A stretch of DNA of 64,000 nucleotides from Solidesulfovibrio carbinolicus. Lineage in GTDB: Bacteria; Desulfobacterota; Desulfovibrionia; Desulfovibrionales; Desulfovibrionaceae. Shown here one piece after another: positions 8,273-48,265 of this stretch. The notes beneath the pieces were generated by a model that was given only the letters and a program-made list of their open reading frames with translations, did no database searches and was not told where the DNA came from. The position numbers were made by a program, and so were the translations under genes. The stretch is taken from contig NZ_CP026538.1 in assembly GCF_004135975.1 (NCBI RefSeq), forward strand, positions 1,612,001-1,676,000, read 5' to 3'. Position 1 is the first letter of the stretch. Each line of letters starts with the position of its first letter.

Positions 8273-8349
8273 GCTCCCGTAGCTCAGTAGGATAGAGCGA
8301 TCGCCTCCTAAGCGATAGGCCGTGCGTTCGATTCGCGCCGGGAGCACCA
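8273..8349 (+). tRNA. tRNA-Arg (CCT), island integration target
   Basis: A 77-nt tRNA with acceptor GCTCCCG...CGGGAGC plus encoded ACCA. The anticodon arm is ATCGC-CTCCTAA-GCGAT (anticodon CCT) and the T loop is TTCGATT. The gene is complete here, but everything from the anticodon stem to the 3' end recurs at 30568-30617. The tRNA is therefore the attachment site of the island to its right. A terminator follows immediately. Confidence 0.96.
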
Positions 8350-8353
8350 TAAA
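8300..8353 (+). repeat. Left attachment site (attL) of the tRNA-Arg island
   Basis: These 54 bp are identical to 30568-30621 (offset 22,268). They run from the anticodon stem through the tRNA 3' end and three bases beyond CCAT. The bases before differ (g versus a). After one mismatch, similarity continues to 8392 through the tRNA terminator with only loop changes. This is the standard footprint of a tyrosine recombinase inserting at a tRNA 3' half. Confidence 0.9.
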
Positions 8354-8357
8354 ATTC

Positions 8358-8390
8358 AAGGGGTTGGACTGATGAGGTCCAACCCCTTTT
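8358..8390 (+). terminator. tRNA-Arg terminator
   Basis: AAGGGGTTGGAC and GTCCAACCCCTT flank a six-to-seven-base loop and are followed by TTTT. The same hairpin with a different loop (TGTAAA instead of TGATGA) is found at 30626-30658 beside the right repeat. Confidence 0.85.
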
Positions 8391-8407
8391 GCTTTGGATG
8401 AAGATTT

Positions 8408-8426
8408 TGTCCCCCATGTGTCCCCC
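8408..8426 (+). promoter_or_regulatory. Left-arm integrase binding repeats (TGTCCCCC x2)
   Basis: TGTCCCCC occurs at 8408-8415 and 8419-8426, one helical turn apart, 55 bp inside the left att core. The same octamer occurs four times at 30405-30450 beside the integrase. I infer arm-type recombinase sites. Confidence 0.5.
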
Positions 8427-8535
8427 AGATGTAGAGAGTGATAGGCGGATTGGAATCAACATTTAGCCCGGGAGAGCGATTGGTCAGGCATTGTGGACCA
8501 CTGCCGCGTTGCCTTTCGCTGTGCTCTCCATCTTG

Positions 8536-8566
8536 TTGACGATAAAATTTATTTTTATATTGATAT
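8536..8566 (+). promoter_or_regulatory. Possible promoter of the cas operon
   Basis: TTGACG (8536-8541) is followed after 16 bp by TATTGA/TGATAT in a markedly AT-rich tract (8541-8570), about 100 bp upstream of cas3. The remaining sequence from 8392 to 8663 holds no other gene I can support. Confidence 0.35.
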
Positions 8567-8663
8567 TCAATCTGGTTTTGAATTACAAACATCCATGCTC
8601 ATTTTCGAAAGCCATGTGTGATCGCGTGGTCGCAGGGTTGACTTTTGATGATTTCAATAAGGC

Positions 8664-11168
8664 ATGTTTATGTGCAATTCTCAAAATATCCATGTTGCCC
8701 ATGTTCGCGGCCAGCAGGGGACTTCCTCTTTTCAAATACAGACGCTGGAGTCGCATCTGCGCGATGTGGCGGCGTTGACGGAATGCTTCGCGGCCAAGGC
8801 AGGCATGCCGCTGGCTGGACGTCTTGTGGGGTTGTTGCACGATTTCGGCAAGTATTCAGGCATGTTTCAACGATACATTCTGTCGGCTGCCGGTTGCATA
8901 AAGCCCGGTGATCCTGACTACATTGACCCGATTGCGAATAAAGGCAAGATCAATCATGCTTTTGCCGGGGGGCAGTACATTTGGCGGCGCTTGATCAATA
9001 AGTCTAAAGTACAATCTATGTCGCAAATGCTGGCTATTTGCATTATTTCACATCATTCCTGTCTCAAAGACTGCCTAGACCAAAATAAACGGGACGTCTT
9101 TGCCGACGACTATATGGCGAGGAGTGAGGAAAAGACGCATCACGATCAATGCGTTCGGGCTTGCGATCCTTCTTTGGCTGCCGAAATCGCTGGTCTGCTG
9201 TCACCCCCCCTGGCGCGGGAAGTGCTTGGGGTTTTTGGGGGACTGCATAAAAGGGTAGAGGACAAATGCCCTGTTGGTTCCGACCGCCAGGATATATTGG
9301 ATAACGAGAACAGTCGCGATTTTCAGCAGGGGCTATTGGCCAAATTCCTGTTGAGCTGTCTGCTGGACGCGGACCGAACGGACAGCGCGGAATTTGAGGA
9401 CCCGCAGCTCAAGCGGTTGCGCGAGGATTCGCCGCGCCGTCCCTGGGATGTGCTTGCGCCGCGTCTGGAAGCGGCCCTGGCGGCGAAGGAGCCGCGCCAT
9501 CCCATCGATCTTTTGCGGCGCGAGATCGCGGACCACTGCGCCCGTCGGGCTCTCGATGACCAGGGCCTTTTTACCCTGACCGTGCCCACGGGCGGCGGCA
9601 AGACCCTGGCCAGTCTGCGTTTTGCCCTGCTGCACGCGCAAAAACATAAGTTGGACCGGGTCATCTACGTCATTCCCTATACTTCCATCATCGATCAGAA
9701 CGCCGCTGTGGCCCGCCAGATACTGGAACAGGGTGAGATGCCCGGCTCTATAGTGTTGGAGCACCATTCCAACTTTCTGCCGGACGCCGACACCGATGAC
9801 GAAGGCGCGGTCAAGCGGTGGGAAAAGCTCGCGGAAAACTGGGACGCGCCGGTAGTTTTTACGACCATGGTGCAGTTTCTGGAAAGCCTGTTCGGTTCCG
9901 GCACGCGCCATGCCCGCCGTATGCACAATCTGGCCCGCAGCGTTATTGTTTTTGACGAAGTGCAGACCGTGCCGGTGCGTTGTCTGCGCCTGTTTTGTAA
10001 TGCCGTGGACTTTCTGGTGGGCCAATGTGGCGCGTCGGCCATGCTGTGCACCGCCACCCAGCCGCGCTTGGGTGATTTGCCCAGGCCGCTGCTTGGCAGT
10101 TTGAACCTCGGGCCGGAGCGGGAAATCATGCCCGACGTGTCTGGCTTGTTTCGCGAACTGCGGCGCACTGATTTTATCGATCATTGCTCCAAGCGCCTGA
10201 GCGTCGAAGCGGTGGCTGAGCTGGCCCGGGAAGAACTGGACGGGAGCGGCTCCTGCCTAGTGATCTGCAACACCAAGAAAATAGCGGAAACGCTCTACTC
10301 GCTGTGCCCTGAGGGGGAAGGCCTTCGGCGGTATTACCTCAGCACCAACCTTTGCCCGGCCCACCGCATGGCACGGCTTGAGGCCATGCGCGCGGATCTG
10401 GACGCCGGGCGGCCGGTGCTGTGCGTCAGCACACAGCTCATTGAATGTGGGGTGGACATCAGCTTCCGATCCGTGATTCGTCTGGCGGCGGGGTTGGATT
10501 CCATCCTGCAGGCAGCCGGGCGCTGCAACCGTCACGGCGAGGGCGAGCGGGGGAGGGTGCATGTGGTGCTTGTGGATGGCGACGCGGAAAACCTGGATTG
10601 TCTGCGGGACATCAAGGACGGGCGCGATGTCTTCTTGGACGCCGTGCGTTTGAACTATGCCAAAGCCCTTGAGGATTCAGATTACGACCTGACCCAGCCG
10701 CTCCTGACCGAGGGGTATTTTAAGCATTTTTATCACCGCAAGGCCCACGTCATGTCGTACGCTCTTGATAAAGGCGGCAACAACCTGTTGGATATGCTCG
10801 GCAGCAACAAATCCGTAACGGAAAAGAGCCTCGCCCCTATGTTGGGCCAGTCGTTCGCTATGGCGGCCAAACACTTCAAGGCCATCGATTCGGCGGCAAC
10901 GAGCATTCTGGTTCCTTACGGCGAAGGTAAGCAAATCATCGACGATCTTTGTTCCTCGGATATTTTGTGGCGTAAAAAGGAATTGTTGCGAAAAGCGCAA
11001 CGCTATTGCGTCAATGTTTTTCCAAATATGGAAAGAGCGCTCCATGCAGCCAATGCGCTCTATCCTGTTCAGGACAGCGGTATGTATGCGCTCAGAGAGA
11101 ACTTCTATTGCGATGCGATGGGGGTGGTGACGCAGCCGACGTCCCGTCTCGGGTTTACCGACATGTAG
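8664..11168 (+). CDS. cas3: CRISPR-associated helicase/nuclease Cas3 (type I-C)
   Basis: An 834-residue effector that is recruited by Cascade and degrades target DNA. The N-terminal HD nuclease shows H31 and LLHDFGK (about 58-63). The SF2 helicase has motif I TVPTGGGKT (about 307-315), DEVQ (about 430), CTATQP, and motif VI QAAGRCNRHGEG (about 615). The C-terminal domain runs to LGFTDM. An in-frame ATG at 8670 has a better spaced TAAGG and may be the true start. It is the first gene of the cas operon, with cas5c starting 13 bp downstream. Motifs appear intact, so it should be active. Confidence 0.95.
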   Translation: MFMCNSQNIHVAHVRGQQGTSSFQIQTLESHLRDVAALTECFAAKAGMPLAGRLVGLLHDFGKYSGMFQRYILSAAGCIKPGDPDYIDPIANKGKINHAFAGGQYIWRRLINKSKVQSMSQMLAICIISHHSCLKDCLDQNKRDVFADDYMARSEEKTHHDQCVRACDPSLAAEIAGLLSPPLAREVLGVFGGLHKRVEDKCPVGSDRQDILDNENSRDFQQGLLAKFLLSCLLDADRTDSAEFEDPQLKRLREDSPRRPWDVLAPRLEAALAAKEPRHPIDLLRREIADHCARRALDDQGLFTLTVPTGGGKTLASLRFALLHAQKHKLDRVIYVIPYTSIIDQNAAVARQILEQGEMPGSIVLEHHSNFLPDADTDDEGAVKRWEKLAENWDAPVVFTTMVQFLESLFGSGTRHARRMHNLARSVIVFDEVQTVPVRCLRLFCNAVDFLVGQCGASAMLCTATQPRLGDLPRPLLGSLNLGPEREIMPDVSGLFRELRRTDFIDHCSKRLSVEAVAELAREELDGSGSCLVICNTKKIAETLYSLCPEGEGLRRYYLSTNLCPAHRMARLEAMRADLDAGRPVLCVSTQLIECGVDISFRSVIRLAAGLDSILQAAGRCNRHGEGERGRVHVVLVDGDAENLDCLRDIKDGRDVFLDAVRLNYAKALEDSDYDLTQPLLTEGYFKHFYHRKAHVMSYALDKGGNNLLDMLGSNKSVTEKSLAPMLGQSFAMAAKHFKAIDSAATSILVPYGEGKQIIDDLCSSDILWRKKELLRKAQRYCVNVFPNMERALHAANALYPVQDSGMYALRENFYCDAMGVVTQPTSRLGFTDM

Positions 11169-11181
11169 TCAGGAGGATGGT

Positions 11182-11973
11182 GTGAAAAACGATATTTCCT
11201 TTGTCGCATCTGGGCGATACGCCCTGTTCTCCGATCCGGTCACCCGGGTGGGGGGCGAAAAATGTTCCTACCACATTCCCACCTACGAAGCCCTCAAGGG
11301 TATCGCCAAATCCGTCTATTGGAAGCCCACTTTCATCTGGATCATCGAGAAGGTGCGCGTGTTGCGGCCGTTTCGCACCCAGACAAAGGGCGTCAAACCC
11401 ATTCGGCCCACAACAGGCGGCAATGATCTGTCCATCTACACCTATCTTGCCGACGTGGAGTACCAAGTTCAGGCCCGTTTTGTCTGGAACGAGCATCGGC
11501 CGGAGCTGGCAGGAGACCGCATTGACGGCAAGCATTACGAGATCGCCCGGCGCATGGTGGCGCGCGGCGGCAGGCAGGACGTTTTTCTCGGCACGCGCGA
11601 CTGCCAGGGTTATGTTGAGCCTTGCGTGTTCGGGGAAGGGCCGGGGGCGTATGACGATCTGGACGAATTGGCCTTTGGCCTGATGTTTCACGGTTTCGAC
11701 TATCCAGACGAAACCGGTGGCGAGCGTTTCGGGGCGCGGTTTTGGAAGCCCGTCATGCGAAAGGGCGTCATCGAATTTCCCGGACCGGACGATCCGTCGC
11801 TTTTGCGCAAGGACATCCGGGCCATGACGCCCAAGGCGTTTCATCCCGAGCGCAATTTCGCGGGCTGCGACGAGGAGGAGTTGCGCCGCTTGTTGCTGGA
11901 GCCGGAGACAGCCGCCTACCCGGATGCGCGGACCCTGCTCGGAGGCGACGGACCGCAAGGGGGGACGCTGTGA
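11182..11973 (+). CDS. cas5c: Cas5c (Cas5d), pre-crRNA processing endonuclease and Cascade subunit
   Basis: A 263-residue RAMP protein. In type I-C systems it replaces Cas6, cutting repeats and staying on the crRNA 5' handle. It shows VRVLRPFRTQTKGVKPIRPTT, the TYLADVEYQVQARFVWNEHRPE segment and a C-terminal glycine-rich region (DVFLGTRDCQGYVEPC) typical of Cas5d. The GTG at 11182 has a textbook AGGAGG five bases upstream. The stop overlaps the cas8c start by 4 nt (GTGA), so translation is coupled. Confidence 0.93.
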   Translation: MKNDISFVASGRYALFSDPVTRVGGEKCSYHIPTYEALKGIAKSVYWKPTFIWIIEKVRVLRPFRTQTKGVKPIRPTTGGNDLSIYTYLADVEYQVQARFVWNEHRPELAGDRIDGKHYEIARRMVARGGRQDVFLGTRDCQGYVEPCVFGEGPGAYDDLDELAFGLMFHGFDYPDETGGERFGARFWKPVMRKGVIEFPGPDDPSLLRKDIRAMTPKAFHPERNFAGCDEEELRRLLLEPETAAYPDARTLLGGDGPQGGTL

Positions 11974-13988
11974 GCTGGATGCAGAAGCTTTTTGAGACCT
12001 ACGAGGCCTGCTCGCGTGAGATTGACTACACCGCTCCGCCCCAGGCTGAAGACGGCGGCCAGGAAGCGCCGGCACTCATGCCGGTGAGCCATACGAGCCA
12101 GCAGGCGCATATTTGCGTGACGCTGGACAGCGAAGGAAAATTCCATCGGGCGGAATTGCTGCCGCGAAAATCGCAGTTGATTATTCCTGCTACGGAAGCA
12201 TCGGCAGGAAGAGCCGGCGCAAAGGTTGCCCCGCACCCACTCATTGATAAGATTCATTATTGCGCCAAGGATTACAAAGGTAAAAAGGCGGAAACCTTCA
12301 AGGGTGGTTTCGAAGCATACTTTGATCTTTTGACAAAGTGGAGCGATTCGGAATTTACACACCCAATGGTTTTGGCTGTTAAGAAGTATATTGAAAAAGG
12401 GACACTTGTTACCGATCTTGTAACGTCAGGCATTCTTCAGGTCGATGCGTCGGGGGAACTTCTAACAAAGCCGGTAGATGAAGAGAGTGGGATTTTCAAG
12501 AGTATTCAAAAAGATCAGAAGACCAAACTTTTTGACCAGGGGGATGCTATCGTCTGCTGGAAAGTTGTTGGCGATGTCTTGGAAGACAGGACCTGGGGTA
12601 ATCAGGAGCTGCAAAAGCAGTGGATGCTCTTTGATGCGCAACAAGAGAAGGGCAACGGGCTGTGCATGGTTTCCGGGGATGTTGTGGCGTGTGCAACAAA
12701 TCATCCGCGCAATATCCGTCGGCCCGGGGACGGGGCCAAGCTCATTTCCTCCAACGACGCCGCGAATTTCACCTTCCGTGGGCGGTTTGAAGAACCGGAA
12801 CAGGCCTGCACCGTGGGCTACGAAACGAGCCACAAGGCCCATAACGCCTTGCGCTGGCTCATTGCCCGGCAGGGGTATCGCAATGGCGAGCAAGCCGTCG
12901 TGGCCTGGGCCGTGAGCGGCGCACGGGTGCCCAATCCTTGCGGAAACTTGCTTGACGGCATCAATGATGAGGACCTCATGCGCGACGATGCGCCGGCCTC
13001 GTCCGAAGCTGTGGCGGTGGAGGCGCAGCCCAAAGCTCCGCCCCCGAACATGGGACTTTTGTTTGCGCAAAGGCTGCGCAAAGCCTTGGCCGGCTATAAG
13101 GCCGACCTCAAGGACACCGATGGCGTCGCGATTATGGCGTTGGATGCCGCCAGCCCGGGCCGGCTTTCCGTGACGTTCTATCGTGAGCAGATGTTGGAAC
13201 AATATTTGGGGAATCTGGAAGCGTGGCAGGAAAATTGCGCCTGGGTGCTGCCGGTGCGGCTGCCCGACGAGGAGAAGGGGAAAGGCAAAAAGCACAAGCG
13301 TACGGTGTACGCCGCCTATGCGCCGCTGCCGGAAACCATCGCCCGGGTGGCCTACGGCCGGCGCGTTGACGATACGCTGCGCAAGGCGACGGTGGAACGG
13401 CTGCTGCCGTGCATAGTGGATGGCGCGCACTTGCCGCGCGATCTTGTGGAAGGGTGCGTGCGCCGGGCCTGCAACCGCGCGGCGCTGGAAGACTGGGAAT
13501 GGCCCGAGGTGTTGGGCGTGGCCTGCGCCATGTATAAAGGTTACCGCGCCATTAATTTTCACGAAAAGAGGTTCGACATGGCCCTGGACGAAAGTATCGA
13601 CTCTCGTGACTATCTTTACGGACGGTTGCTTGCGGTGGCGGAGTACATCGAGCGTACGGCGCTGCAGCAGGCCGGCGAAAAGCGCGCCACCAACGCGGAA
13701 CGCCTCATCCAGCGTTTTGCCGACCATCCCTATGCAACATGGCGACAGTTGGAGTTGTCGCTTGCGCCCTATATGCAGCGGCTGCAAAATAGTTCCTCTG
13801 CGGGGCTTCTTGGGCGCGCCAAGAAGATTCTGCGGGAGATTTGCGACAAGTTTTCGCCGGAGGCGTTCGAGTCGCCGGCCAAGCTCAGCGGGGAATTTTT
13901 GCTGGGCTACCACTGCCAGATGTCGGCTTTTTACACCAAGTCCGAGAAAGACGCCGCACCCGAAGAACATACTCAGGAAGGAGCGTAA
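11970..13988 (+). CDS. cas8c: Cas8c (Csd1), large Cascade subunit
   Basis: A 672-residue Csd1-family protein, the PAM-reading large subunit. The N-terminus SWMQKLFETYEACSREIDY is family-typical, as are the FRGRFEEPEQACTVGYETSHKAHNALRWLIARQGYRNGEQAVVAW block and the helical C-terminus. I chose the GTG at 11970, which overlaps the cas5c stop. Many Csd1 proteins are near 600 residues, so this one is somewhat long, with extra sequence around residues 65-180. The last 136 codons probably also direct separate synthesis of Cas11c. Confidence 0.92.
   Translation: MSWMQKLFETYEACSREIDYTAPPQAEDGGQEAPALMPVSHTSQQAHICVTLDSEGKFHRAELLPRKSQLIIPATEASAGRAGAKVAPHPLIDKIHYCAKDYKGKKAETFKGGFEAYFDLLTKWSDSEFTHPMVLAVKKYIEKGTLVTDLVTSGILQVDASGELLTKPVDEESGIFKSIQKDQKTKLFDQGDAIVCWKVVGDVLEDRTWGNQELQKQWMLFDAQQEKGNGLCMVSGDVVACATNHPRNIRRPGDGAKLISSNDAANFTFRGRFEEPEQACTVGYETSHKAHNALRWLIARQGYRNGEQAVVAWAVSGARVPNPCGNLLDGINDEDLMRDDAPASSEAVAVEAQPKAPPPNMGLLFAQRLRKALAGYKADLKDTDGVAIMALDAASPGRLSVTFYREQMLEQYLGNLEAWQENCAWVLPVRLPDEEKGKGKKHKRTVYAAYAPLPETIARVAYGRRVDDTLRKATVERLLPCIVDGAHLPRDLVEGCVRRACNRAALEDWEWPEVLGVACAMYKGYRAINFHEKRFDMALDESIDSRDYLYGRLLAVAEYIERTALQQAGEKRATNAERLIQRFADHPYATWRQLELSLAPYMQRLQNSSSAGLLGRAKKILREICDKFSPEAFESPAKLSGEFLLGYHCQMSAFYTKSEKDAAPEEHTQEGA
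13578..13988 (+). CDS. cas11c: Cas11c small subunit from an internal cas8c start (predicted)
   Basis: In-frame ATG at 13578 (MALDESIDSRDYLYGRLL) inside cas8c is preceded by AAAGAGG with 6-nt spacing, a good ribosome site within coding sequence. It would give a 136-residue helical protein ending with Cas8c. Work on type I-C Cascade (including Desulfovibrio vulgaris) has shown that the small subunit Cas11c arises from exactly this kind of internal initiation. Here the site is seen directly; expression is inferred. Confidence 0.65.
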   Translation: MALDESIDSRDYLYGRLLAVAEYIERTALQQAGEKRATNAERLIQRFADHPYATWRQLELSLAPYMQRLQNSSSAGLLGRAKKILREICDKFSPEAFESPAKLSGEFLLGYHCQMSAFYTKSEKDAAPEEHTQEGA

Positions 13989-13989
13989 C

Positions 13990-14844
13990 ATGAGCCTGCA
14001 ACACAAGATCGACTTCGCCGTCATCCTCACCGTGAACCGTGCCAATCCCAACGGCGATCCGCTCAACGGCAACCGACCCCGCACGGACTATGACGGCTAC
14101 GGCGAAATCAGCGATGTTTGCCTCAAACGCAAGATTCGTGATCGGCTCATGGAGATGGGGGAGGGACAGCGCGTGTTCGTGCAGTCCGACGACCGCAAGC
14201 TCGACGGCATGGTCTCGCTCAAGGAACGGGCGGAATCCGCCGAGCACGGCCTTGGCAAGGACGCCTTCAACCCCAAGAAGTGCAGCAAGGAAGAGACCGC
14301 CAAGAAAGCCTGCGCCAAGTGGTTCGACGTGCGTGCCTTTGGGCAGCTTTTCGCCTTTGGCAAGGATGGCGATGCCGCCGGTGTGTCCATTGCCGTGCGC
14401 GGCCCGGTGAGCCTCCACGCCGCCTTTAGCGTGGAGCCGGTCAGCGTGGCCAGCATCCAGATCACCAAGAGCGTCAGCAGCGAGGGCGACGGCACCAAAC
14501 GCGGCTCGGACACCATGGGCATGAAGCACCGCGTCGATAAAGGCGTGTACGTGTTTTACGGCAGCATCAACCCCCAGTTGGCCGAGCGCACGGGCTTCAG
14601 CGACGAGGACGCGGCGGTCCTCAAGGCCATCTTGCCCCGACTTTTTGAGAACGACGCCTCCTCGGCCCGCCCGGAAGGCAGCATGGCCGTCAATCATGTC
14701 CTGTGGTGGCAGCACGCCAGCAAATCTGGGCAGTATTCGTCGGCCCGGGTGCACAGGAGCCTCACGGTCAACCCCGACGGCAGCTACGTGCTTGACGGCG
14801 AGGCCACGCCGGGGCTGAAGGCGGATGTATTGGAAGGTTTTTAG
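13990..14844 (+). CDS. cas7c: Cas7c (Csd2), Cascade backbone subunit
   Basis: A 284-residue RAMP protein that coats the crRNA spacer. Family hallmarks are the N-terminus KIDFAVILTVNRANPNGDPLNG, DVCLKRKIRDRL, WFDVRAFGQLFAF, IQITKSVSSEGDG, MGMKHRVDKGVYVFYGSINPQLAE and the C-terminal LWWQHASKSGQYSSARVHRSL. ATG at 13990 follows the cas8c stop by one base with AGGAGC upstream. A 461-bp non-coding gap separates it from cas4, unusual for this otherwise tight operon. Confidence 0.95.
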   Translation: MSLQHKIDFAVILTVNRANPNGDPLNGNRPRTDYDGYGEISDVCLKRKIRDRLMEMGEGQRVFVQSDDRKLDGMVSLKERAESAEHGLGKDAFNPKKCSKEETAKKACAKWFDVRAFGQLFAFGKDGDAAGVSIAVRGPVSLHAAFSVEPVSVASIQITKSVSSEGDGTKRGSDTMGMKHRVDKGVYVFYGSINPQLAERTGFSDEDAAVLKAILPRLFENDASSARPEGSMAVNHVLWWQHASKSGQYSSARVHRSLTVNPDGSYVLDGEATPGLKADVLEGF

Positions 14845-15010
14845 TCCAATAGGCCTCCTCTGTTAGGTCTGTGGGTTTTCCTTCTGACATCTCCTTACAC
14901 TGAAGTCTTGACGGGGTTCGGAGAAACCCATACATGTTGTTCACGGGTACCGCCAAAAGGCGGCCCGGAAAGTCTGGCTCAGGAGGCTGAAAAGATGCAT
15001 GTCATAATAA

Positions 15011-15057
15011 ATTAAGGCGAACAATCCATAGCAGGGAATGGAATTGTTCGCCTTAAT
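15011..15057. other. Perfect 15-bp inverted repeat in the cas7c-cas4 gap
   Basis: ATTAAGGCGAACAAT (15011-15025) and ATTGTTCGCCTTAAT (15043-15057) are perfect complements. The stem continues with CCAT/ATGG after a one-base bulge. No T tract follows in either direction, so it is not a simple terminator; it could be a dyad operator or an RNA-stability element. The surrounding gap 14845-15305 has no protein-coding gene I can support, but holds this repeat, a second GC hairpin and a lone CRISPR-like repeat. Confidence 0.7.
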
Positions 15058-15146
15058 CGCCTGGGTAGCCTGAGGAGTCTTCGGGGCAATCTTGACGGGG
15101 TGCACCGGAAGAATTTCCTTAGTTCCCTGTTTTAATAATATGTTAT

Positions 15147-15178
15147 GCCTGCCCCGTTTGTCAACGGACGGGGCAGGC
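15147..15178 (+). terminator. GC-rich hairpin upstream of the lone repeat
   Basis: GCCTGCCCCGT (15147-15157) pairs with ACGGGGCAGGC (15168-15178) around a 10-base loop; CCCTTTG follows. Possibly ends transcripts from cas7c, separating them from the mini-CRISPR and cas4. Confidence 0.5.
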
Positions 15179-15198
15179 CCTTTGATCTCTCGGTTTTT

Positions 15199-15283
15199 GT
15201 CGCTCCTCCTGGGGCGTGGATTGAAGCGTGTATGGAGATGTCAGCGTGATGTTGGGGAGGCCCCCTTCTTAGGGAGGGGGCCT
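15199..15283 (+). ncRNA. Degenerate single CRISPR repeat with pseudo-spacer and terminator-like hairpin (candidate regulatory crRNA)
   Basis: 15199-15227 is a shortened array repeat. It keeps GTCGC at the 5' end and GGGGCGTGGATTGAAGC at the 3' end, but the stem-loop is compacted to CGCTCC-TCCT-GGGGCG. The 3' handle GTGGATTGAAGC is unchanged, so Cas5c could still cut it. It is followed by 30 nt of unique sequence (15228-15257, starting GTGTATGGAGATG), then a 9-bp hairpin AGGCCCCCT/AGGGGGCCT (15258-15283). No second repeat follows. Layout and position inside the cas operon match degenerate mini-CRISPRs (CreR/CreA type) described in other type I systems. No target could be recognised by eye. Confidence 0.55.
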
Positions 15284-15305
15284 ATATCTCTTTGGAGAAA
15301 CCGCC

Positions 15306-16963: not shown

Positions 16964-16967
16964 AGCC

Positions 16968-17258
16968 ATGCTGGTTTTAGTCAGCTATGACGTGAACACG
17001 CAGGACGCGGCCGGTCGCCGCCGGCTGCGCAAGATCGCGCGGCACTGCGAGAACTGGGGGCAGCGGGTGCAGTATTCGGTTTTCGAGTGCGTGGTGGACC
17101 CGGCCCAGTGGGTGGCGCTGCGGGGGAATCTGGTGGCGTGCATGGACCCGGGGAAAGACAGTCTTCGGTTCTATTTTCTGGGAGCCAATTGGAAGAATCG
17201 CGTTGAGCATGTGGGGGCCAAGCCCGGCTATGATCCGCAGGGGCCATTGATTTTGTGA
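16968..17258 (+). CDS. cas2: Cas2, acquisition complex subunit
   Basis: A 96-residue ferredoxin-fold protein that bridges two Cas1 dimers. MLVLVSYDVNTQDAAGRRRLRKIARHCENWGQRVQYSVFEC is the standard I-C Cas2 N-terminus with the conserved Asp in SYDV. LRFYFLGANWKNRVEHVGAKPGYDPQGPLIL closes the protein. It is the last cas gene, directly before the leader. Confidence 0.97.
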   Translation: MLVLVSYDVNTQDAAGRRRLRKIARHCENWGQRVQYSVFECVVDPAQWVALRGNLVACMDPGKDSLRFYFLGANWKNRVEHVGAKPGYDPQGPLIL

Positions 17259-23413: not shown

Positions 23414-23776
23414 GGACTCTGGCCCCTCTGCCCAAACGGGCTGGCGGAGTGCGTATGTCTAGATGATTGCTGCACCCAACTCTGGGGCTACCCTCAAAAT
23501 GTGACTGGTTCGAAGATGCCCGACATGTCACGACAGTGGGTTTGGGGGAGAGAAAGAGCGGCCAAAAGGTGAAGCACGGGTTAAGATTTACCGAAAATAA
23601 TGAATTTTATTAAATAGTAGAGTACAGCATTGGAGATGGAGGGCGAAATGCGGTCAATCCGGGGTGAAGGTTTGGCAGGTTCTTGAGGTTTTGTCCCAGC
23701 CCTCAAGACTATCTTATCTTCCTCACTGTTCTTTTTTGTCAGCTCCTTAAGAAAGAACCGTCAAAACCTCAGAAAC
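23414..23776. other. Non-coding gap after the array
   Basis: 363 bp between the last repeat and the primase stop. 23585-23640 is AT-rich (ATTTTATTAAATAGTAG). I see no gene, no further repeat and no clear terminator. Confidence 0.6.
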
Positions 23777-26368
23777 CTATGCTTCGCCTGCTTTGACTTG
23801 GACGACCTGCCAACTGGCCATATTCGGGCCGGGGACTTGGACGAGCCGCAACCCATCGACGACACGGCCTTTATGCCGTTTTAGCCAGTGGCCCAGGCGG
23901 CGCGCGTTGACCCCAGGGCCATTCCTCTCGCCGGCGATGTCGTCAAGGACTTCAAAAAGCCCAGAATCGTTTGAGTGGCAGCGTTCTATGAGGTGCTTGA
24001 TTTTTATGGCGCTTTTTCCAAACTCCTGCCACCAAAGGGTGAGGAGCGTGCGCAGTTGCCCCTGTTCCGGGTCCTCATCCATGATGGCGTTGCGGCTGGC
24101 GCAAGGGTCTGGTTCGCCGACCCACATGAGCGCGCTACGCACCAGGGCAGACCACTGGCCGAAGCCGCCGAAAGGGGTTCCACCCATGTCTGCCCGACCG
24201 GCGACGATGTATGCCCGCAAAATGGTCAAACAGGCGCTGACATACTCGGTGCGGTTTTCGAGTACGCGCTCGAGAGGATCAAAGGAGAACTGGCGTTCCT
24301 CCGGGCGTTCGCATCCTGGGTCAAGCCGGCAAAGCAAGGAGCGGCGAGGTAAATCGCCGGCCAATACCAGATTGTTGCCGTTGGCCGACCAAAGTGTCGT
24401 GCTGGGTATTTCAACGCTTGGCGAAATGCCAAGCGGTCGGACTTTGACCGTGCTGGCAGTGAGGGCTTGACATAGTAGGTCAGATTGCAATGTTCCATTG
24501 TAGTTGTCCAAGCTCACGAGTGGATCTCCAGATAGAAGGCTGCCTGATAGACGCTTTTCAAGCTCTACGCTGTCGGTCGTCGCTGCAAGGACTGCAGTCC
24601 TTCTACCTGTTGCTATTATAGCTGCAATGTCCATCAAATATGATTTTCCACTGCCGCGCACCGGTGCCGTGATTGCGAAAAGAGGCATGTGGTCGAGGAT
24701 GGGGCGTACCATGGTGCTGAGAATAAGAGCCAAGGCAACGCTGCAATCCACGGGTTCAACAAAACTGAATCCTGACAGGAGATCTTTGATAAATTCAAGT
24801 TTATTTGTAGCTTCCGAGCGTGTCGGCTGGCTAGAGATTTTGACGTTGAGGCGGTGGGCGAAATAGTATTGGCTTTGGGGATCATATCCAGGCGTGAGCA
24901 GTAGGGTGCCGTCCGGTCGTAAAGTTGGACAAGTCAAAATGCCTCGTAAGGGCGGCATGGGCCATAGGCCGGCGCGTCCCATGATGGTGTCAGCGACATC
25001 TTTGGGTGGATCGGCGGCGCGAATCTCACCACTTCGGCGATCCAACTTTACAAATCTGCCATAACGCCCCAGCACATCCAGAATGAACGACTTTTGGGCC
25101 TCCATTATAACAAGTTTCTCTTGGGAACATGCAGTAGGGAAACTTTGTGAAGGTGTCGGCAGCGTTCCTAGGCGGACCAGTTGACTGCCGCGTTGATATA
25201 TTTTGAACTCGTTTGGTAAATCGCATTTGGCAAGAACTGCCTCGCAGGCATCCACAAGTTCGCCAGATGCCCCTTTTTCTATACGAATGACTGGCGAATA
25301 ATTGTTATTTTTTGTGTGGTCATGGTGCGCATTGGTGCTATTGATTTCATATTGATCTCTAGCAATGTCTTTAAAGTCGGGTAATGCCAAGGCGTACTGT
25401 TTAATATGCTGCATGACATGTGCGCTATCCCAGTCGTCTGCCTCAGCATCAGCCAAGTCCCAGCCGGATTTAACGCTCGCTGGCGGCAAGACAATGTGGG
25501 CAGCCGTGCCCATTGATGCAAGGGCTTCTGCCACGCCTATTGCCGCCTCATAGCCGCACCTGTCTGCATCAGGCCAGATAACGACCGGCTTTCCTGCCAG
25601 TGGCCTGAAGTCGGCCTTATGAACAGCCCTCGAGCCTCCTGGCCAGGAGACGGCTACGGCATCTGTAAGAAGGCGTTGGGCTGCGTCCGCTGTTTTCTCG
25701 CCTTCGCAGACAAGAACGAAGTCATCCGTGGTCGAGGCAGATAAGCGGTCAAGGCCATACAGGGGGCGAGGGACAGGAAAGCTCTTCCATTGCCATCGAG
25801 GCTTGCCGTTGGCCTCGCCGTAGACCTGGGGGAGAACTTCTTTGCTTCCGTCAGGCAGATTGAAGCGGCAGGCATAGCCCAGGATCTGTCCTTGCTCATT
25901 TCGATAGGCCCAGCGGGCAGCGACGGTCCGTGTGTCCCAGGAGCCGGCGACTTGGCGTCTGATGATGTCTGGCGGCGCGGGGGCGTGCGATGGCACAGGC
26001 ATGATGATTTGTCCTGATGAGTTAGCGGCCGTTCCCCTTGGCTTGTCCGCTTTGTTCGAAAGGCGGTAGCGAGTCTGGTCTGAATAAACTCCCAAGTTTT
26101 CAGCGAGTTGTTGTGCTGCATCGCTTTGCCGCAAGTCATGGATAGCCGCGAACAGGGAGACCAGATCGCCTCCCTTGGCGTCAGTGGCAAAATCGGCCCA
26201 CATGCCGGTGGCAAGGTTGACTTTGCACGATCGCCCTTGTCCACCGTCAAGGCTGGCACAGACGTATTCCTGTCCTTCTTGGCGTCCCCCAGGCAGCCAG
26301 GTGGTGAGTAGCTCGGTTATCCGTCCAAGTGCAGAGGCGTTGACGCGCCTGAAAGAGTCAGGAGACAT
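23777..26368 (-). CDS. Island primase/helicase (TOPRIM plus P-loop ATPase)
   Basis: About 863 residues. The N-terminal part has a primase-like WADFATDAKGGDLVSLFAAIHDL motif. A TOPRIM domain follows (VLVCEGEKTADAAQRLL, later VIWPDADRCGYEAA, about 210-290). A C-terminal ATPase has Walker A APVRGSGKSYLMD (about 567). This plan is common to replication proteins of P4-like satellites and integrative islands. I chose the ATG at 26368 because GGAG lies 9 nt upstream and it begins just after the alpA-like stop; starts at 26383 or 26419 would overlap that gene. It probably replicates or maintains the excised island. Confidence 0.75.
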   Translation of the reverse strand: MSPDSFRRVNASALGRITELLTTWLPGGRQEGQEYVCASLDGGQGRSCKVNLATGMWADFATDAKGGDLVSLFAAIHDLRQSDAAQQLAENLGVYSDQTRYRLSNKADKPRGTAANSSGQIIMPVPSHAPAPPDIIRRQVAGSWDTRTVAARWAYRNEQGQILGYACRFNLPDGSKEVLPQVYGEANGKPRWQWKSFPVPRPLYGLDRLSASTTDDFVLVCEGEKTADAAQRLLTDAVAVSWPGGSRAVHKADFRPLAGKPVVIWPDADRCGYEAAIGVAEALASMGTAAHIVLPPASVKSGWDLADAEADDWDSAHVMQHIKQYALALPDFKDIARDQYEINSTNAHHDHTKNNNYSPVIRIEKGASGELVDACEAVLAKCDLPNEFKIYQRGSQLVRLGTLPTPSQSFPTACSQEKLVIMEAQKSFILDVLGRYGRFVKLDRRSGEIRAADPPKDVADTIMGRAGLWPMPPLRGILTCPTLRPDGTLLLTPGYDPQSQYYFAHRLNVKISSQPTRSEATNKLEFIKDLLSGFSFVEPVDCSVALALILSTMVRPILDHMPLFAITAPVRGSGKSYLMDIAAIIATGRRTAVLAATTDSVELEKRLSGSLLSGDPLVSLDNYNGTLQSDLLCQALTASTVKVRPLGISPSVEIPSTTLWSANGNNLVLAGDLPRRSLLCRLDPGCERPEERQFSFDPLERVLENRTEYVSACLTILRAYIVAGRADMGGTPFGGFGQWSALVRSALMWVGEPDPCASRNAIMDEDPEQGQLRTLLTLWWQEFGKSAIKIKHLIERCHSNDSGLFEVLDDIAGERNGPGVNARRLGHWLKRHKGRVVDGLRLVQVPGPNMASWQVVQVKAGEA

Positions 26369-26372
26369 CTGC

Positions 26373-26648
26373 TTATGCTCCATGGTCAGCCCGTTGCTTG
26401 TCGTAGCCAGGGCGCTCACGCAGGGTGGTTCGCCACCAAGCTAAGAAGGTGTCGCGGCGGACAAGGACTTTGCGGCCCGAGTAAATGAAGCACTCGCGAG
26501 GAATGTCGATGTCGGGATTGCTCCTGGCATTCTGGATGGTTCGCCAGTTGATGGCCCCGCCAGTCAGTTCGTCCAGGGCGAGCCCGGCAAAAACCGGAGG
26601 CAGGGCTGACTGTAGGGTTGAGACGGTTTCATCAAGGATGTTGGACAT
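26373..26648 (-). CDS. AlpA-like DNA-binding protein (excisionase/activator candidate)
   Basis: A 91-residue protein with a winged-helix-like core: LTGGAINWRTIQNARSNPDIDIPRECFIYSGRKVLVRRDTFLAWW. The form 'choose helix, then IYSGRKVLVRRDTFLAWW' is typical of AlpA/MerR-type excisionases on islands. It ends five bases before the chosen primase start and is probably co-transcribed with it. In P4-like elements such proteins switch on integrase or direct excision; that role here is inferred. Confidence 0.55.
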   Translation of the reverse strand: MSNILDETVSTLQSALPPVFAGLALDELTGGAINWRTIQNARSNPDIDIPRECFIYSGRKVLVRRDTFLAWWRTTLRERPGYDKQRADHGA

Positions 26649-26738
26649 GAAGCCTCCCGTGAGGGTTGTCTTTCACGGGAAGCTAGCGAAATGGTAAGGC
26701 GGAAGGGATGGACAAAATGCGGGACAAACAGGGATATT

Positions 26739-27596
26739 TTATTTTGCTTTTTTCTTCTTTGATTTCAGTATTCTGGATGCTCGTTTGATGCATGCGTCCT
26801 TGCTTGTGCCTCCCTGTTTGAAATTCATGAGCTGCCCGATCCTCTCTCTTGTCAGCCCCCGGGCTTGTAGTTCGTTGGCAATGAGTGTGTGATCGCGGCA
26901 GAGGGTTTCGAGTATCATGACGATGTTCTCTATTGTTATGTCCTGGAGCGAGAAGTTTGTGTGTTGGATTCCGTTATCTTCAGAGTTGATAAAGTTTTGC
27001 TTTTCTTGCTCTATTTGTTTTAATAAATCTCTTTTTGTGGCGAATTCCGTGACGCTTGTTGGTTTTAGTTTGCGAAGTGTCGCGATTTGTTCATTAAATT
27101 CGTGTGACTCGAATGCTGCTCTGTATGCCTTTCTATAACTGCTTGTGCTAATCTCCGCATATACTTTTGAATTGTTCGGGCTTTTTTCAAATATAGTGTA
27201 GGGCAATGGGCGTTGTTTGGACTCAAGAAATATTTTCAGTTCTTTTTTATTTATATGGATTTGTAAAAAATTGTCGACTATAAAAGAAAAGTCTAGCGAG
27301 TTGTCGGAATTATCGTAGAGTTTCCCTTCGATTTTTATGTGTAGTCCTTCAAAGATAAACACAATAACCGTAAGTTGTAATAGGGTTGCAATGTTTTCTG
27401 TGGTAATGTTGCCGTCATAGTGGATGTCCATTGTGTTTCTAAAGGAGTCTTGTAGCCATAAACTTGTATTGTCTTTGTTGTGTCTGATGTAGTGTTCAAT
27501 TATGTAGTTAATTCTACTGATATCGGTGTAGTATGGGTCTTTGCTTTCTATGAGAGCAGTTATTAATTCTGTTGTTGAGAAAATAGATTTCTTCAT
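26739..27596 (-). CDS. Hypothetical AT-rich island protein
   Basis: 285 residues; I do not recognise the family. It is clearly lower in GC than its neighbours. The central region is rich in Ile/Asn/Asp; residues 180-230 are charged and probably coiled (KRDLLKQIEQEKQNF). The C-terminus contains a helix-turn-helix-like stretch (HTLIANELQARGLTRERIGQLMNFKQGG) and a basic tail RILKSKKKKAK. This suggests a nucleic-acid-binding cargo protein. It stands alone, with its own upstream gap. Its function is unknown; a defence or regulatory role is only a guess from location. Confidence 0.6.
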   Translation of the reverse strand: MKKSIFSTTELITALIESKDPYYTDISRINYIIEHYIRHNKDNTSLWLQDSFRNTMDIHYDGNITTENIATLLQLTVIVFIFEGLHIKIEGKLYDNSDNSLDFSFIVDNFLQIHINKKELKIFLESKQRPLPYTIFEKSPNNSKVYAEISTSSYRKAYRAAFESHEFNEQIATLRKLKPTSVTEFATKRDLLKQIEQEKQNFINSEDNGIQHTNFSLQDITIENIVMILETLCRDHTLIANELQARGLTRERIGQLMNFKQGGTSKDACIKRASRILKSKKKKAK

Positions 27597-27932: not shown

Positions 27933-28391
27933 TTATCGTGCTTCTCGTCGGAACCCGCACTGAGTGCAAAACACCTTGTCCTCTGCTTTCCAGGAAGGTT
28001 TCCCGCAGGCTGGACAACGCGGTCCATGCACGGCTCCACAGTCTGGACACTTCAGGACGTAGGCATCTTGCGGTATGGTCAACCGTTGTCGCTTATCCGG
28101 TTCATGTCCGCAGGAGGGATGAGGCCAACTTTCTTTTTGTTGTGCCGCATCAAGCCAAACTTGGAACCATTCAGCTTCGAGCATCAAGTACGGCTCTTCC
28201 GCACCGCATTGGCGGCACACGGCCACGCTTTGGCGGATGACATTCTCTGAGCCGCAGATGCCACAGCAACCCCTGTCTCGCCGTTTGTCCTTGCAAGCCG
28301 TTTCGTGACGATCACGGCGAACCTTGCGGGTGTCGGGGCCATCTATTTCACAGGCTTCCCGCAGGAGGTCGTGTTTTAGCTTGGAGTCCAT
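27933..28391 (-). CDS. Zinc-ribbon protein, unknown role
   Basis: 152 residues from the ATG at 28391 (MDSKLKHDLLREACEIDG). At least three CxxC pairs are visible: CGICGSENVIRQSVAVCRQCG, CPDCGAVHGPRCPACG and FCTQCGF, so two or three zinc ribbons are likely. N-terminal residues are highly charged (TRKVRRDRHETACKDKRRDRG). Zinc-ribbon proteins of this type bind nucleic acid or act as adaptors. It is encoded between hicB and the gap on the same strand as the integrase. No better family assignment could be made. Confidence 0.6.
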   Translation of the reverse strand: MDSKLKHDLLREACEIDGPDTRKVRRDRHETACKDKRRDRGCCGICGSENVIRQSVAVCRQCGAEEPYLMLEAEWFQVWLDAAQQKESWPHPSCGHEPDKRQRLTIPQDAYVLKCPDCGAVHGPRCPACGKPSWKAEDKVFCTQCGFRREAR

Positions 28392-28422
28392 AAGGCCCTC
28401 GTTGAAGGCTTTGGGGTTACAT

Positions 28423-28899
28423 CTATCCCCAAACGCGCTCCTTGCCCCGGTCGCCGAAGAAGCCGGGATAGATCGGGGACGGCTCGACGCGCACCTGGAC
28501 GCGGTAGCCGAGGGCTTCAAGCGCCATTTCCAGATGGTCCCACTTGCTGCGGTGGTAGAGGTCCAGCAGGCGGCGCACGGACTTGGCGTCGGTGTGCAGC
28601 CGGACGGCCATCTTGAGTTGTGAGACGCCTTGATCCTTCATGCCCTGGTAGACGGCCAGCTTGACCACGGCCATGGGCGGTAGTTCTATGCAGCTTTGTC
28701 CTGCCGTGGGTTCGCTCGGGCTGGGGATGTCCTCGCCGTCGTCCATCATGGCGGAAAGCATGGTCAGGGCTGCGTCAAGCGCCATGTCCAGGGCCTCGGC
28801 TTCGTCCTGCCCGAAAGTGATGGTCCCGGGGATGTCGGGCACTTCGGCAATAACGGTTCCGTTTTCGTCCGGGGTCAGCACCACGGGGAAGCGCAGCAT
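28423..28899 (-). CDS. hicB: HicB family antitoxin
   Basis: 158 residues from MLRFPVVLTPDENGTVIAEVPDIPGTITFGQDEAEAL, the partially degraded RNase-H-like HicB fold, followed by DMALDAALTMLSAMMDDGEDIPSPS. The C-terminal half (MAVVKLAVYQGMKDQGVSQLKMAVRLHTDAKSVRRLLDL) is an HTH DNA-binding domain for autoregulation. It follows hicA by one base on the same strand. The pair probably stabilises the island against loss. Confidence 0.88.
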   Translation of the reverse strand: MLRFPVVLTPDENGTVIAEVPDIPGTITFGQDEAEALDMALDAALTMLSAMMDDGEDIPSPSEPTAGQSCIELPPMAVVKLAVYQGMKDQGVSQLKMAVRLHTDAKSVRRLLDLYHRSKWDHLEMALEALGYRVQVRVEPSPIYPGFFGDRGKERVWG

Positions 28900-28900
28900 A

Positions 28901-29098
28901 TTAAAGCTCCTTGGGGTCAATGCCCAACTGCTTGCACAGCATCTTGATGAAGACGGGGCTAATGTCTGCGTCACCGTGGACAGGCAGCGGGGCCTTGTTG
29001 CCGCCATGGCGAAGCAGGCAATGGCCGCCTTTTCCCCGGGCCGGCTCGACCACCACGCCGAGGGCGGCCAGCCGCCGCAAGAGTTCGCGCCCCTTCAT
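28901..29098 (-). CDS. hicA: HicA family mRNA interferase toxin
   Basis: 65 residues from MKGRELLRRLAALGVVVEPARGKGGHCLLRHGG, with the double-stranded-RNA-binding fold and the catalytic histidine in GGHCLLRH. It continues PVHGDADISPVFIKMLCKQLGID, the standard HicA C-terminus. The frame is open further upstream (to 29239) but the extra part is not family-like. It is upstream of and nearly contiguous with hicB, the canonical toxin-first order. Confidence 0.87.
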   Translation of the reverse strand: MKGRELLRRLAALGVVVEPARGKGGHCLLRHGGNKAPLPVHGDADISPVFIKMLCKQLGIDPKEL

Positions 29099-29177
29099 GG
29101 CAAACAGGTAGGGCAGAAATGCCCGATGGTCAATGGCATGAGCTATTCCTTGCGCCCTTCCGGCAGGATCATGGTGC

Positions 29178-30401
29178 TTAATTCTCACCGATCTTAACGA
29201 CCTTGCCCCGGGCCTTGGCCGCGTCCATGCCGGCTTCAAAGGTCTTGACCGCCCGGCGCAGCTTGTCCGGGGAAAGGTGGCTGTAACGCTCGGTCATTGC
29301 CAGCGTGCCGTGGCCCATGAGTTCCTTGACCGAATACAGGTCCACGCCTTGCTCAACCAGCCAAGACGCGAAGGTGTGCCTCAAGGTGTGGAAAACGACT
29401 TTCTGACGCGGATCGGTGACGCCCTTGTTGAAGCCGAGAGCGGCGACCACGCGGTTAAACGTCTCGGAAATCTGCACGATGCGCCCGCCATTGGCGGACA
29501 GGAAGACCAGATCGTTATGGCCTCGGCGTTCCATGGCCCCAAGCATCGCCGCCACGGCCTCGGTCATGTAGGCCGCCCGGGTCTTGCCGCTTTTGGTGTC
29601 GCGCAGGATGAGGACGCCGCGCTCCATGTCCACGTCGCCCCAAGTCAGGGAAAAGATTTCTCCGGCCCTCAATCCGCAGTGCAGGGCGAACAAGGCCATG
29701 TCATGGACGTTGGACTCCCTTTCGGCCAGGGCGGCAAGCAGGCGGTCGGCTTCATCATGGGTCAGGAAGCGCAGCCGGCGGGCATCGGCAGAGGGCTTTT
29801 TGACCAGGGAAACCGGGTTGTCGCCGGCATAGAGGCCATGGCGCTTGGCGAAGTTGAAGACTTGCCGCAGGGCGGCCAGGACGTGCCGAATCGTTTGGGC
29901 GGATCGACCGGCCTCGGCCATGGTCTTCTTGATGCGCTCCAGGTGGATCGGCTTAATGTCCTTGAGCGGCTTGTCGGCCAGGGTAGGGGAGAGCCACAGG
30001 CGATAGGCGGCTTCCTCGGCGTAGGCGGTATGGGCGGCCTTGTTGGCCTGGGCAACGGGCAGATACTTTTCCCAGGCCTGGGCGAGGGTGATGTTTTCGC
30101 GTTCCTCGACGGCACGGGCCTCGGCCTCGGCTTTGCGCTTGTCCTCGGCCAGTTTACGCTTTTCGGCCAGGGAGGTCGCGCCCTCGCCGGTCCTGGCCGC
30201 CTCTTGGAGCTTGGCCAGGGTCTGCGCTGCCTTGGCCGCCGTCCAGCCCTGGGACGCCCAACCGAGGGCCTCCTCGCGGCGTGATCCGGCCACCCGGAAG
30301 CGGATGGCGAAATACTGGTCAGGCTTCACGCCGTGCTTACGGGTCGGGTGCTCCCGATACCGGACGCCTTCGTGCTTGGTCTGCTTCCAGGTGTAGCCCA
30401 T
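29178..30401 (-). CDS. int: Tyrosine recombinase, island integrase
   Basis: 407 residues from MGYTWKQTKHEGVRYREHPTRKHG, with GGGGGA just upstream. An N-terminal arm-binding domain is followed by a core-binding SAM-like domain (about 120-210) and the catalytic domain: Arg in HCGLRAGEIFSLTWGDV, Lys in TKSGKTRAAYM, HxxR in FHTLRHTFASWL, His in ELMGHGTLAMT and the nucleophile Tyr in ERYSHLS. All catalytic residues are present. It lies between hicA and the right att copy, as in tRNA-targeted islands. Arm-type repeats overlap its promoter, so it may control its own expression. Confidence 0.92.
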   Translation of the reverse strand: MGYTWKQTKHEGVRYREHPTRKHGVKPDQYFAIRFRVAGSRREEALGWASQGWTAAKAAQTLAKLQEAARTGEGATSLAEKRKLAEDKRKAEAEARAVEERENITLAQAWEKYLPVAQANKAAHTAYAEEAAYRLWLSPTLADKPLKDIKPIHLERIKKTMAEAGRSAQTIRHVLAALRQVFNFAKRHGLYAGDNPVSLVKKPSADARRLRFLTHDEADRLLAALAERESNVHDMALFALHCGLRAGEIFSLTWGDVDMERGVLILRDTKSGKTRAAYMTEAVAAMLGAMERRGHNDLVFLSANGGRIVQISETFNRVVAALGFNKGVTDPRQKVVFHTLRHTFASWLVEQGVDLYSVKELMGHGTLAMTERYSHLSPDKLRRAVKTFEAGMDAAKARGKVVKIGEN

Positions 30402-30404
30402 CGC

Positions 30405-30450
30405 TGTCCCCCGGCTTGTCCCCCAAAATTTTGTCCCCCACCTGTCCCCC
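30405..30450 (-). promoter_or_regulatory. Right-arm integrase binding repeats (TGTCCCCC x4)
   Basis: TGTCCCCC occurs at 30405-30412, 30417-30424, 30432-30439 and 30443-30450, with starts 12, 15 and 11 bp apart, immediately upstream of int. The octamer matches the two copies inside the left end. I infer right-arm sites overlapping the int promoter. Confidence 0.5.
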
Positions 30451-30567
30451 AAAATTCGAGGAAACAGGGTGAAAATGGGTGAAAGCCTATGAGTGGGAAG
30501 TATGGCTTAACATCTTAATAGTCAACGCTTTTATGTGATCCTGTGAAGTTTAGTGAAGGTCTAAATA

Positions 30568-30621
30568 ATCGCCTCCTAAGCGATAGGCCGTGCGTTCGAT
30601 TCGCGCCGGGAGCACCATAAA
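30568..30621 (+). repeat. Right attachment site (attR), truncated tRNA-Arg copy
   Basis: Identical to 8300-8353. It begins in the anticodon stem and contains only the 3' part of tRNA-Arg, so it is not a functional tRNA. The tRNA terminator follows (30626-30658) with four differences from the left copy, all at or near the loop. The next bases resemble the left arm of another element. Confidence 0.9.
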
Positions 30622-30713
30622 TTTCAAGGGGTTGGACTGTAAAGGTCCAACCCCTTTTGCGTTGGGGGTGATTTTGTCCATCCCCTGTCCATCCTTTGGG
30701 GAAAGAGGATATT

Positions 30714-30760: not shown

Positions 30761-30778
30761 GCCGCCTGTTTTCTCCCT

Positions 30779-48256: not shown

Positions 48257-48265
48257 GGCGGCCTC

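Follow-up and report, generated by a model that had tools for sequence, protein, structure and literature searches.

We have analyzed a stretch of 64,000 nucleotides from Solidesulfovibrio carbinolicus (positions 1612001-1676000 of contig C1, 4,524,866 bp, of genome G000; here called the window), in which a complete type I-C CRISPR-Cas system is enclosed between two copies of the 3′ part of a tRNA-Arg(CCT) gene. We consider it highly probable that this 22 kb island is a site-specific integrative element, in which a backbone at the right end is the vehicle and a slot for defence genes has been filled by the type I-C locus. Related elements carry other genes in this slot, and the immune system looks like an exchangeable load, not a fixed unit.

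The Island Boundaries and the Empty Site

The integration target is the tRNA-Arg(CCT) gene, called at 8273-8349 on the plus strand, the 3′ part of which forms the left attachment (att) copy. Repeat comparison places the two 54 bp copies at 8300-8353 and 30568-30621, both on the plus strand and 22,268 bp apart. The preliminary description of the window had reported a perfect 54 bp repeat of the tRNA 3′ part at both ends of the island, and the match is indeed exact. Beyond the 54 bp the similarity extends to 98 bp at 95% identity, including a hairpin-like stretch. When positions 8200-8700 were compared with the window's own genome, six matches were listed, of which the four besides the att pair are only 73-78% identical. 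The island without its CRISPR array has a G+C content of 57.1%, against 64.1% in the left flank and 63.3% in the right flank. An intact tyrosine recombinase lies beside the right att copy, as previously described, at 29178-30452 on the minus strand (PF00589, E = 6.5e-34; an alternative in-frame start is at 30401). The region thus has the features of a tRNA-targeting element, with an integrase at one end, att repeats containing the tRNA 3′ end, and an intact tRNA gene.

The window was compared with its relatives in a genus set of 14 genomes that includes G000, leaving aside matches within the array and those no longer than 40 bp. Estimated completeness is 69% for G010 and 89% for G007, and contamination 8% for G002 and 5% for G012. 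The tRNA-Arg region was matched in all 14. The preliminary description had proposed a comparison with related genomes lacking the island, and two sisters, G005 and G007, are empty at this site, which supports an insertion with these ends. In G005 a single att copy directly joins the counterparts of the window's two flanks. The 300 bases to the left of att are 92.3% identical to window positions 8000-8299, and the 1250 bases to the right are 95.2% identical to positions 30618-31867, while the island ends show only 44-51% identity to the empty site. In G007 the flanks are 92.0% and 79.2% identical. In the stretches compared, three further genomes (G001, G003 and G004) also have just one att copy; their right flanks differ or end, and only G005 and G007 serve here as empty sites.

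Among the best matches listed for the integrase, with neighborhoods counted within the genus only, seven of the 14 genomes (G000, G002, G006, G008, G009, G011 and G013) have an enzyme of at least about 82% identity beside a second att copy. Where both copies lie on one contig, they are 22,268 bp (G000), 13,825 bp (G008), 19,943 bp (G009) and 22,279 bp (G011) apart. Together with the two empty sites, this recurrence bears out the earlier placement of the island at the tRNA-Arg 3′ end. The remainder of the backbone is less uniform. The primase-like protein is present at 80% identity or more in five genomes (G000, G002, G006, G008 and G013), and a PrimPol-type protein takes its place in G009. The G011 element, with an integrase of 82% identity, bears a MobA/MobL relaxase-helicase (PF03389, E = 2.5e-31). 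The toxin-antitoxin position is occupied by HicAB in G000, G006, G008 and G009, by HigBA in G002, and by a Gp49-type gene with a Pfam score just below the cut-off in G013. The integrase and the site are constant, and the other parts of the backbone are variable.

The Type I-C Locus

Seven cas genes lie on the plus strand at 8664-17258 in the order cas3-cas5-cas8c-cas7-cas4-cas1-cas2, adjoining the array. The gene for Cas3 (8664-11168) encodes HD and helicase domains, both scoring above their cut-offs. It is followed by cas5c (11182-11973; TIGR01876) and cas8c (11970-13988; TIGR01863), for which we propose a GTG start at 11970 and which is matched over positions 1-587 of the 588 in the model. 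Then come cas7, also known as csd2 (13990-14844; TIGR02589), cas4 (15306-15947; TIGR00372), cas1 of the I-C type (15941-16963; TIGR03640) and cas2 (16968-17258; TIGR01573). Cas5c, Cas8c, Cas7 and Cas1c score above the I-C-specific NCBIfam cut-offs, and Cas4 and Cas2 above general ones. The combination of Cas8c, Cas5c and Cas7/Csd2, and the gene order beside the array, assign the system to type I-C.

Repeat analysis places the array at 17542-23413 on the plus strand, with 89 repeats of 32 nucleotides, of which 88 are identical and the last has one changed base. The 88 spacers are 33-36 nucleotides long. The complete set of I-C cas genes and the 88-spacer array that the preliminary description had placed between the att copies are therefore both confirmed, by the NCBIfam models and the repeat count. 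Two adjacent spacers have been duplicated in tandem at window positions 20726-21023. No Tn7 gene was found among the 14 island proteins scanned, and cas1, cas2 and cas3 are all present, so that the locus does not have the character of a CRISPR-associated Tn7-like transposon, with its TnsABC/TniQ proteins and reduced Cas set.

An Apparently Exchangeable Load and a Probable Scar

The backbones of G013, G008 and G002 become homologous to the window at about 23542-23566, which we take as the approximate boundary between load and backbone. In the window the slot of about 15 kb between the tRNA gene and this boundary is occupied by the I-C locus. Elsewhere in the genus it holds different genes. In G009 there is a type III restriction-modification system, with a methyltransferase at E = 1.5e-259 and a restriction subunit recognized by weaker matches, and in G013 a type I restriction-modification system. 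The G006 slot contains an nSTAND-TPR protein and a WD40 protein, the N terminus of which appears TIR-like by eye and has a weak library match only. Not all of the load is recognizable as defence, because the tRNA-side contig of G006 continues with a protein matching FliG_C. The G008 slot has a TPR protein, a protein of unknown function and an orphan array of nine repeats (L066:16626-17134), with a repeat that we take to resemble the I-F type; no Cas1 was found in that genome. In G011 the one protein scanned against the defence library gave a match (PDC-S02), and the other genes there, apart from two identified separately, are seen as reading frames.

The slot in G002 holds a second, distinct I-C system, with Cas3, Cas7 and Cas1 that are 34.5%, 33.5% and 65.6% identical, respectively, to those of the window. 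Its Cas5, Cas8c, Cas7 and Cas1 pass the I-C models, and its contig C47 links two CRISPR repeats to the backbone primase. On the integrase contig of the same genome (L077:2842-11428), to the right of att, there are frames that by eye resemble a type I restriction system, and loads may thus be stacked at the tRNA-Arg gene.

The G006 element bears traces of an I-C locus around its other load. At the left the island end is retained to about 35 bp into cas3, and at the right the terminal CRISPR repeat is retained with its changed last base. There is no I-C system in G006, and searches of its genome found neither Cas1 nor Cas8c. These traces are most simply explained if the element formerly held the I-C locus and its interior has since been replaced; the two ends of the scar sit on separate contigs, and the interior is not seen whole. 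It had been suggested that the immune system is mobile as one unit. A site-specific island does hold the whole system, but related elements carry other load, and that of G006 only traces of I-C, so that the CRISPR system does not look tied to the vehicle.

Cas8c occurs in 8 of the 14 genomes. The I-C locus lies directly at the tRNA-Arg gene in G000, G002, G010 and G012 and to the right of the second att copy in G013. In G011 some 44 kb separate it from the integrase, and in G003 and G005 it is at other places. The G005 locus is found between two transposase-like gene copies about 13 kb apart (L114:5769-19130), with a 30% identical integrase beside cas3. The direct repeats flanking it were considered as att sites and rejected, since they are the two gene copies themselves, recognized by reading the sequence and not by a hidden Markov model (HMM). 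I-C loci near integrases are also seen in G218 and G028. In the G010 locus, Cas8 (L070:5876-7762) is only about 60-63% identical to that of the window, and Cas1 and Cas5 about 95%, as if Cas8 had been under pressure or exchanged.

Spacer Targets

The array was compared with nine whole genomes of the genus, giving, apart from hits to other arrays and repeats, six spacer matches with per-genome E values from 1e-9 to 1.4e-4, and a seventh at 0.004. A full-length scan of selected loci identified eight protospacers with seven mismatches or fewer; five matches with eight mismatches were discarded as noise. Four of the eight are preceded by TTC, one by TTT and three by other triplets. The binomial chance of four or more TTC triplets at a frequency of 1/64 is 4e-6, and the finding corresponds to the 5′ TTC protospacer-adjacent motif (PAM) of type I-C (consensus from PMC7913775). 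None of 88 reversed decoy spacers gave a match with up to eight mismatches. Independent support for the protospacers comes from the whole-genome E values, the PAM and the gene content.

The PHROG scan covered the genes of seven protospacers, all but that of spacer s27. Two of the seven lie in a tape measure gene, one each in genes for a tail protein and a major head protein, and one in a gene of a PHROG family of unknown function; the other two have no PHROG match. Four of the eight fall within 7.5 kb on one contig of G007, the sister with an empty site, and a second contig of this genome is matched exactly by a fifth spacer. Against 50,697 phage records the array matched nine, none over most of the query. 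One unannotated record matched 28% of the query at 71.8% identity, and the rest were short and weak, such as one of 32 bp (90.6% identity) within a terminase gene.

Within its own genome the array has no second match at E = 0.01, and elsewhere in the window, including the adjacent prophage, there is no match to any spacer with eight mismatches or fewer. Rival elements inserted at the same tRNA gene were considered as targets of the array and rejected for the loci scanned, where there was no match with seven mismatches or fewer. No spacer is shared with the arrays of G008, G010, G011, G012 and G013 by full-length scan. In the whole-genome comparison the arrays of G003 and G005 matched only at 68-69% over long stretches, through their repeats.

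The Right-End Backbone

All of the genes identified between the load boundary and the right att copy lie on the minus strand. The first of these (23777-26419) was previously described as a primase. It has matches to primase and helicase families in PHROG, but those to Toprim fall below the cut-off, and a profile of four sequences gave no match to solved structures at E = 0.01; we call the protein primase-like. The adjacent gene (26373-26648) is present as described and encodes a small protein, possibly a winged helix. Its earlier name, AlpA-like, has no match in Pfam or PHROG, and thus no confirmation by HMM. A low-confidence structural model from three sequences (predicted local distance difference test (pLDDT) score 56) contains helices and a hairpin that would be compatible with a winged helix, and we regard the name as only plausible. 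There follows a reading frame for a 285 amino acid protein of unknown function (26739-27596) with a relative in G013; its predicted structure, with a pLDDT score of 43, was not used. A zinc-ribbon-like protein (27933-28391; Pfam matches below the cut-off) has relatives in five of the seven elements.

The genes for the HicB antitoxin (28423-28899; PF15919) and the HicA toxin (28901-29098; PF07927) complete the backbone together with the integrase. Both domains score above the Pfam cut-offs, in agreement with the HicAB assignment made earlier. The two domains lie in adjacent genes, as is characteristic of HicAB, and the toxicity is predicted only.

The host genome contains, at another place (G000:C1:3833668-3835032), a further but broken copy of this primase-like gene, 94% identical over its C-terminal part. 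A 45% identical integrase is located nearby at C1:3831181, and these are the remains of a related element.

Divergence of Element and Core Genes

We compared divergence at fourfold sites in the element with a core baseline, comprising six reading frames to the left of the tRNA gene, some with starts set mechanically. Between the window and G008 the divergence is 4.8% for hicB, 8.6% for hicA and 13.2% for the zinc-ribbon gene, against 31.5% for the core. The corresponding values for G009 are 3.6%, 8.6% and 8.8%, against 28.5%. For G013 the small AlpA-like gene differs by 10.4%, with a core value of 26.5%. With two other species hicAB shows a far closer match than the core genes do, so it has moved recently. 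These comparisons show that hicAB and the zinc-ribbon gene (G008 and G009) and the AlpA-like gene (G013) were transferred after the species separated.

A Proposed Mechanism and Its Alternatives

In the mechanism we favor, the tyrosine integrase would recombine the att site of the element with the 3′ end of tRNA-Arg(CCT), as expected from what is known of its family. This would rebuild the tRNA gene at the left and leave the 54 bp copy at the right. The vehicle would be the right-end backbone, comprising the integrase, the toxin-antitoxin pair, and the zinc-ribbon-like, small DNA-binding-like and primase-like proteins. The stretch from the tRNA gene to the primase would serve as a load slot for defence genes, here taken up by the full type I-C locus. 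The protospacers and the PAM suggest that this locus guards the host against phages of the genus. It could be replaced by other load, a route to which the differing loads and the one observed scar point, and HicAB may stabilize the element, as the addiction module that the preliminary description had supposed.

A number of observations weigh against this reading. Clear signs of recent transfer are confined to hicAB and the zinc-ribbon gene in G008 and G009, and to the AlpA-like gene in G013. The integrase differs by 22.9% from that of G008, 27.5% from G009, 28.5% from G013, 29.6% from G002 and 42.7% from G011, and the primase by 29.5% (G008) and 28.6% (G013), so that both are near the core values of 26.5-33.4%. 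The genes of the G006 element differ by 11.8-16.8% (42.4% for the AlpA-like gene), close to the core value of 10.5%, which would fit vertical descent. The I-C genes of G010 differ by 16-22% for cas4, cas1, cas2 and cas5, 26-28% for cas3 and cas7, and 50% for cas8, with a core value of 29.8%, and a long residence of the locus at the tRNA site in that genome is possible on these values. In G013 the I-C locus lies outside the element, to the right of the second att copy. Several of the elements were assembled from more than one contig (three for G002, and two each for G006 and G013). For the spacers, the decoy control was lenient, being run on the same loci, which had been chosen partly through array matches. 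The three protospacers with neither TTC nor TTT include the sole exact match (s87, with GTC) and that of s27, in a gene that does not look phage-like.

Might the I-C locus be an old resident at the tRNA-Arg gene, with the element and its integrase arriving later and enclosing the cas genes by recombination? The close I-C locus at the same tRNA gene in G010, of nearly core-like divergence, would accord with this, as would another I-C locus there in G012, a genome with no close integrase found, and the position of the locus in G013. The preliminary description had held that relatives with the same cas locus at this place and no att repeat would refute the island as a mobile unit. G010 and G012 may be such cases; their contigs end inside the array, and the repeat searched for was on no other contig in these genomes. 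Yet integration at a tRNA 3′ end leaves earlier DNA downstream of the element, as seen in G013, whereas the cas genes of the window lie inside, between the tRNA gene and the backbone. Moreover, no cas locus is present at this site in the nearest sisters, G005 and G007, and a single contig of G002 links CRISPR repeats to the backbone primase. We therefore regard an older residence of the I-C locus as unlikely. It is far more improbable still, to the point of being almost negligible, that the att copy at the right is a tRNA fragment present by chance, or belongs to the neighboring prophage, and that the region is no unit at all. Prophage genes do begin immediately after this copy, but the idea is contradicted by two empty sites, each with a single copy between the two flanks, and by the recurrence of the integrase-att pair in half of the genomes.

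The integrative element that we prefer could move in more than one way. We have considered a satellite like P4 or the phage-inducible chromosomal islands (PICI), packaged by a helper phage, with the CRISPR system serving both against competing phages. The integrase, the small winged-helix-like protein and the primase-like protein would suit such a satellite, as would a defence slot like that of P4-like satellites, a prophage directly to the right that encodes terminase, portal and tail proteins, and the lack of a structural gene among the island proteins scanned. Nevertheless, we think this doubtful; the seven right-end proteins scanned include no packaging, capsid-changing or terminase gene, no helper is known, and 22 kb exceeds the 7-20 kb given for satellites in the abstract of one paper (PMC13376191). 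Mobilization by the machinery of a co-resident conjugative element is a tentative possibility. The G011 relative bears the MobA/MobL relaxase described above, but a scan of 14 island proteins of the window gave no relaxase. Nor was a mating apparatus found among them, and the island does not qualify as an integrative conjugative element. We would advance with similar reserve the broader proposal of a mobile chassis, spread across this genus of Desulfovibrionaceae and possibly a phage satellite, that trades whole adaptive immune systems with their memory against innate ones (restriction, STAND) in one tRNA-Arg slot. Were this so, a recipient would gain a ready library of spacers against phages of its own genus, exemplified by the phage genes in the empty-site sister.

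Relation to Known Systems

Defence hotspots in P4-like satellites and P2-like phages, the subject of a paper by Rousset, resemble the present case. The text available of that work (PMC9122126) describes a fixed backbone with a slot of defence turnover, as here. The P4 and P2 slots are about 1-5 kb in size, in contrast to the slot of about 15 kb with a whole CRISPR-Cas locus in the window, where the satellite nature is putative.

Type I-C systems occur on pKLC102-like conjugative islands of Pseudomonas aeruginosa (Leon et al., 2021, PMC7913775). In the accessible part of that account they resemble our case in the complete I-C system carried as load by an integrating element, the TTC PAM and the phage-directed spacers. 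Our island differs from the conjugative one in its size of 22 kb, its primase-like gene, the lack of a relaxase among the proteins scanned, and the related vehicles with other defence loads. The spacers of the window miss the sister elements examined, and the I-C immunity of P. aeruginosa too was termed domesticated in the same part of the text. CRISPR-Cas systems have also been described on Vibrio islands inserted at tRNA genes (McDonald et al., 2019, PMC6360697). From the sections of that paper at hand, these too combine CRISPR-Cas with an integrase at tRNA loci in regions missing from relatives. The Vibrio systems are of types I-F, II-B and III-A, and no load-replacement scar is reported in those sections.

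The carriage of CRISPR-Cas by integrating elements, also at tRNA genes, is thus already known, and we present a further case. In the literature on CRISPR, islands, satellites, hotspots, Desulfovibrio and Solidesulfovibrio the island was not found in titles or the starts of abstracts of the papers listed, which does not exclude its publication. The term 'genomic island' is absent from the portion of a paper on the Desulfovibrionaceae mobilome that was available (PMC11434368). The merit of the present case lies in the series at one site and in the scar. This is a natural series at a single chromosomal position that is variously empty, occupied by I-C, by another I-C or by restriction systems, or marked by the scar of a lost I-C. 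It allows one to ask whether adaptive immunity spreads as the load of an element, at what rate it is replaced, and of what use the memory is to the recipient.

The Neighboring Prophage

Immediately beyond the right att copy is a contractile-tail prophage, which extends from 30779 to about 69000 in window numbering. It includes genes for tape measure (42273-44375), sheath (45251-46942), portal (54953-56575) and terminase (56559-58199). When it was compared with the relatives, removing hits below 150 bp, parts of it recurred at the same place in G004 and G011. In its late region there are two large plus-strand genes at 47837-53010, a stretch that is missing from the G004 version. One encodes a protein of 843 amino acids without a match, and the other a protein of 805 amino acids with matches to nSTAND3 and NACHT; the two are possibly a defence pair borne by the prophage.

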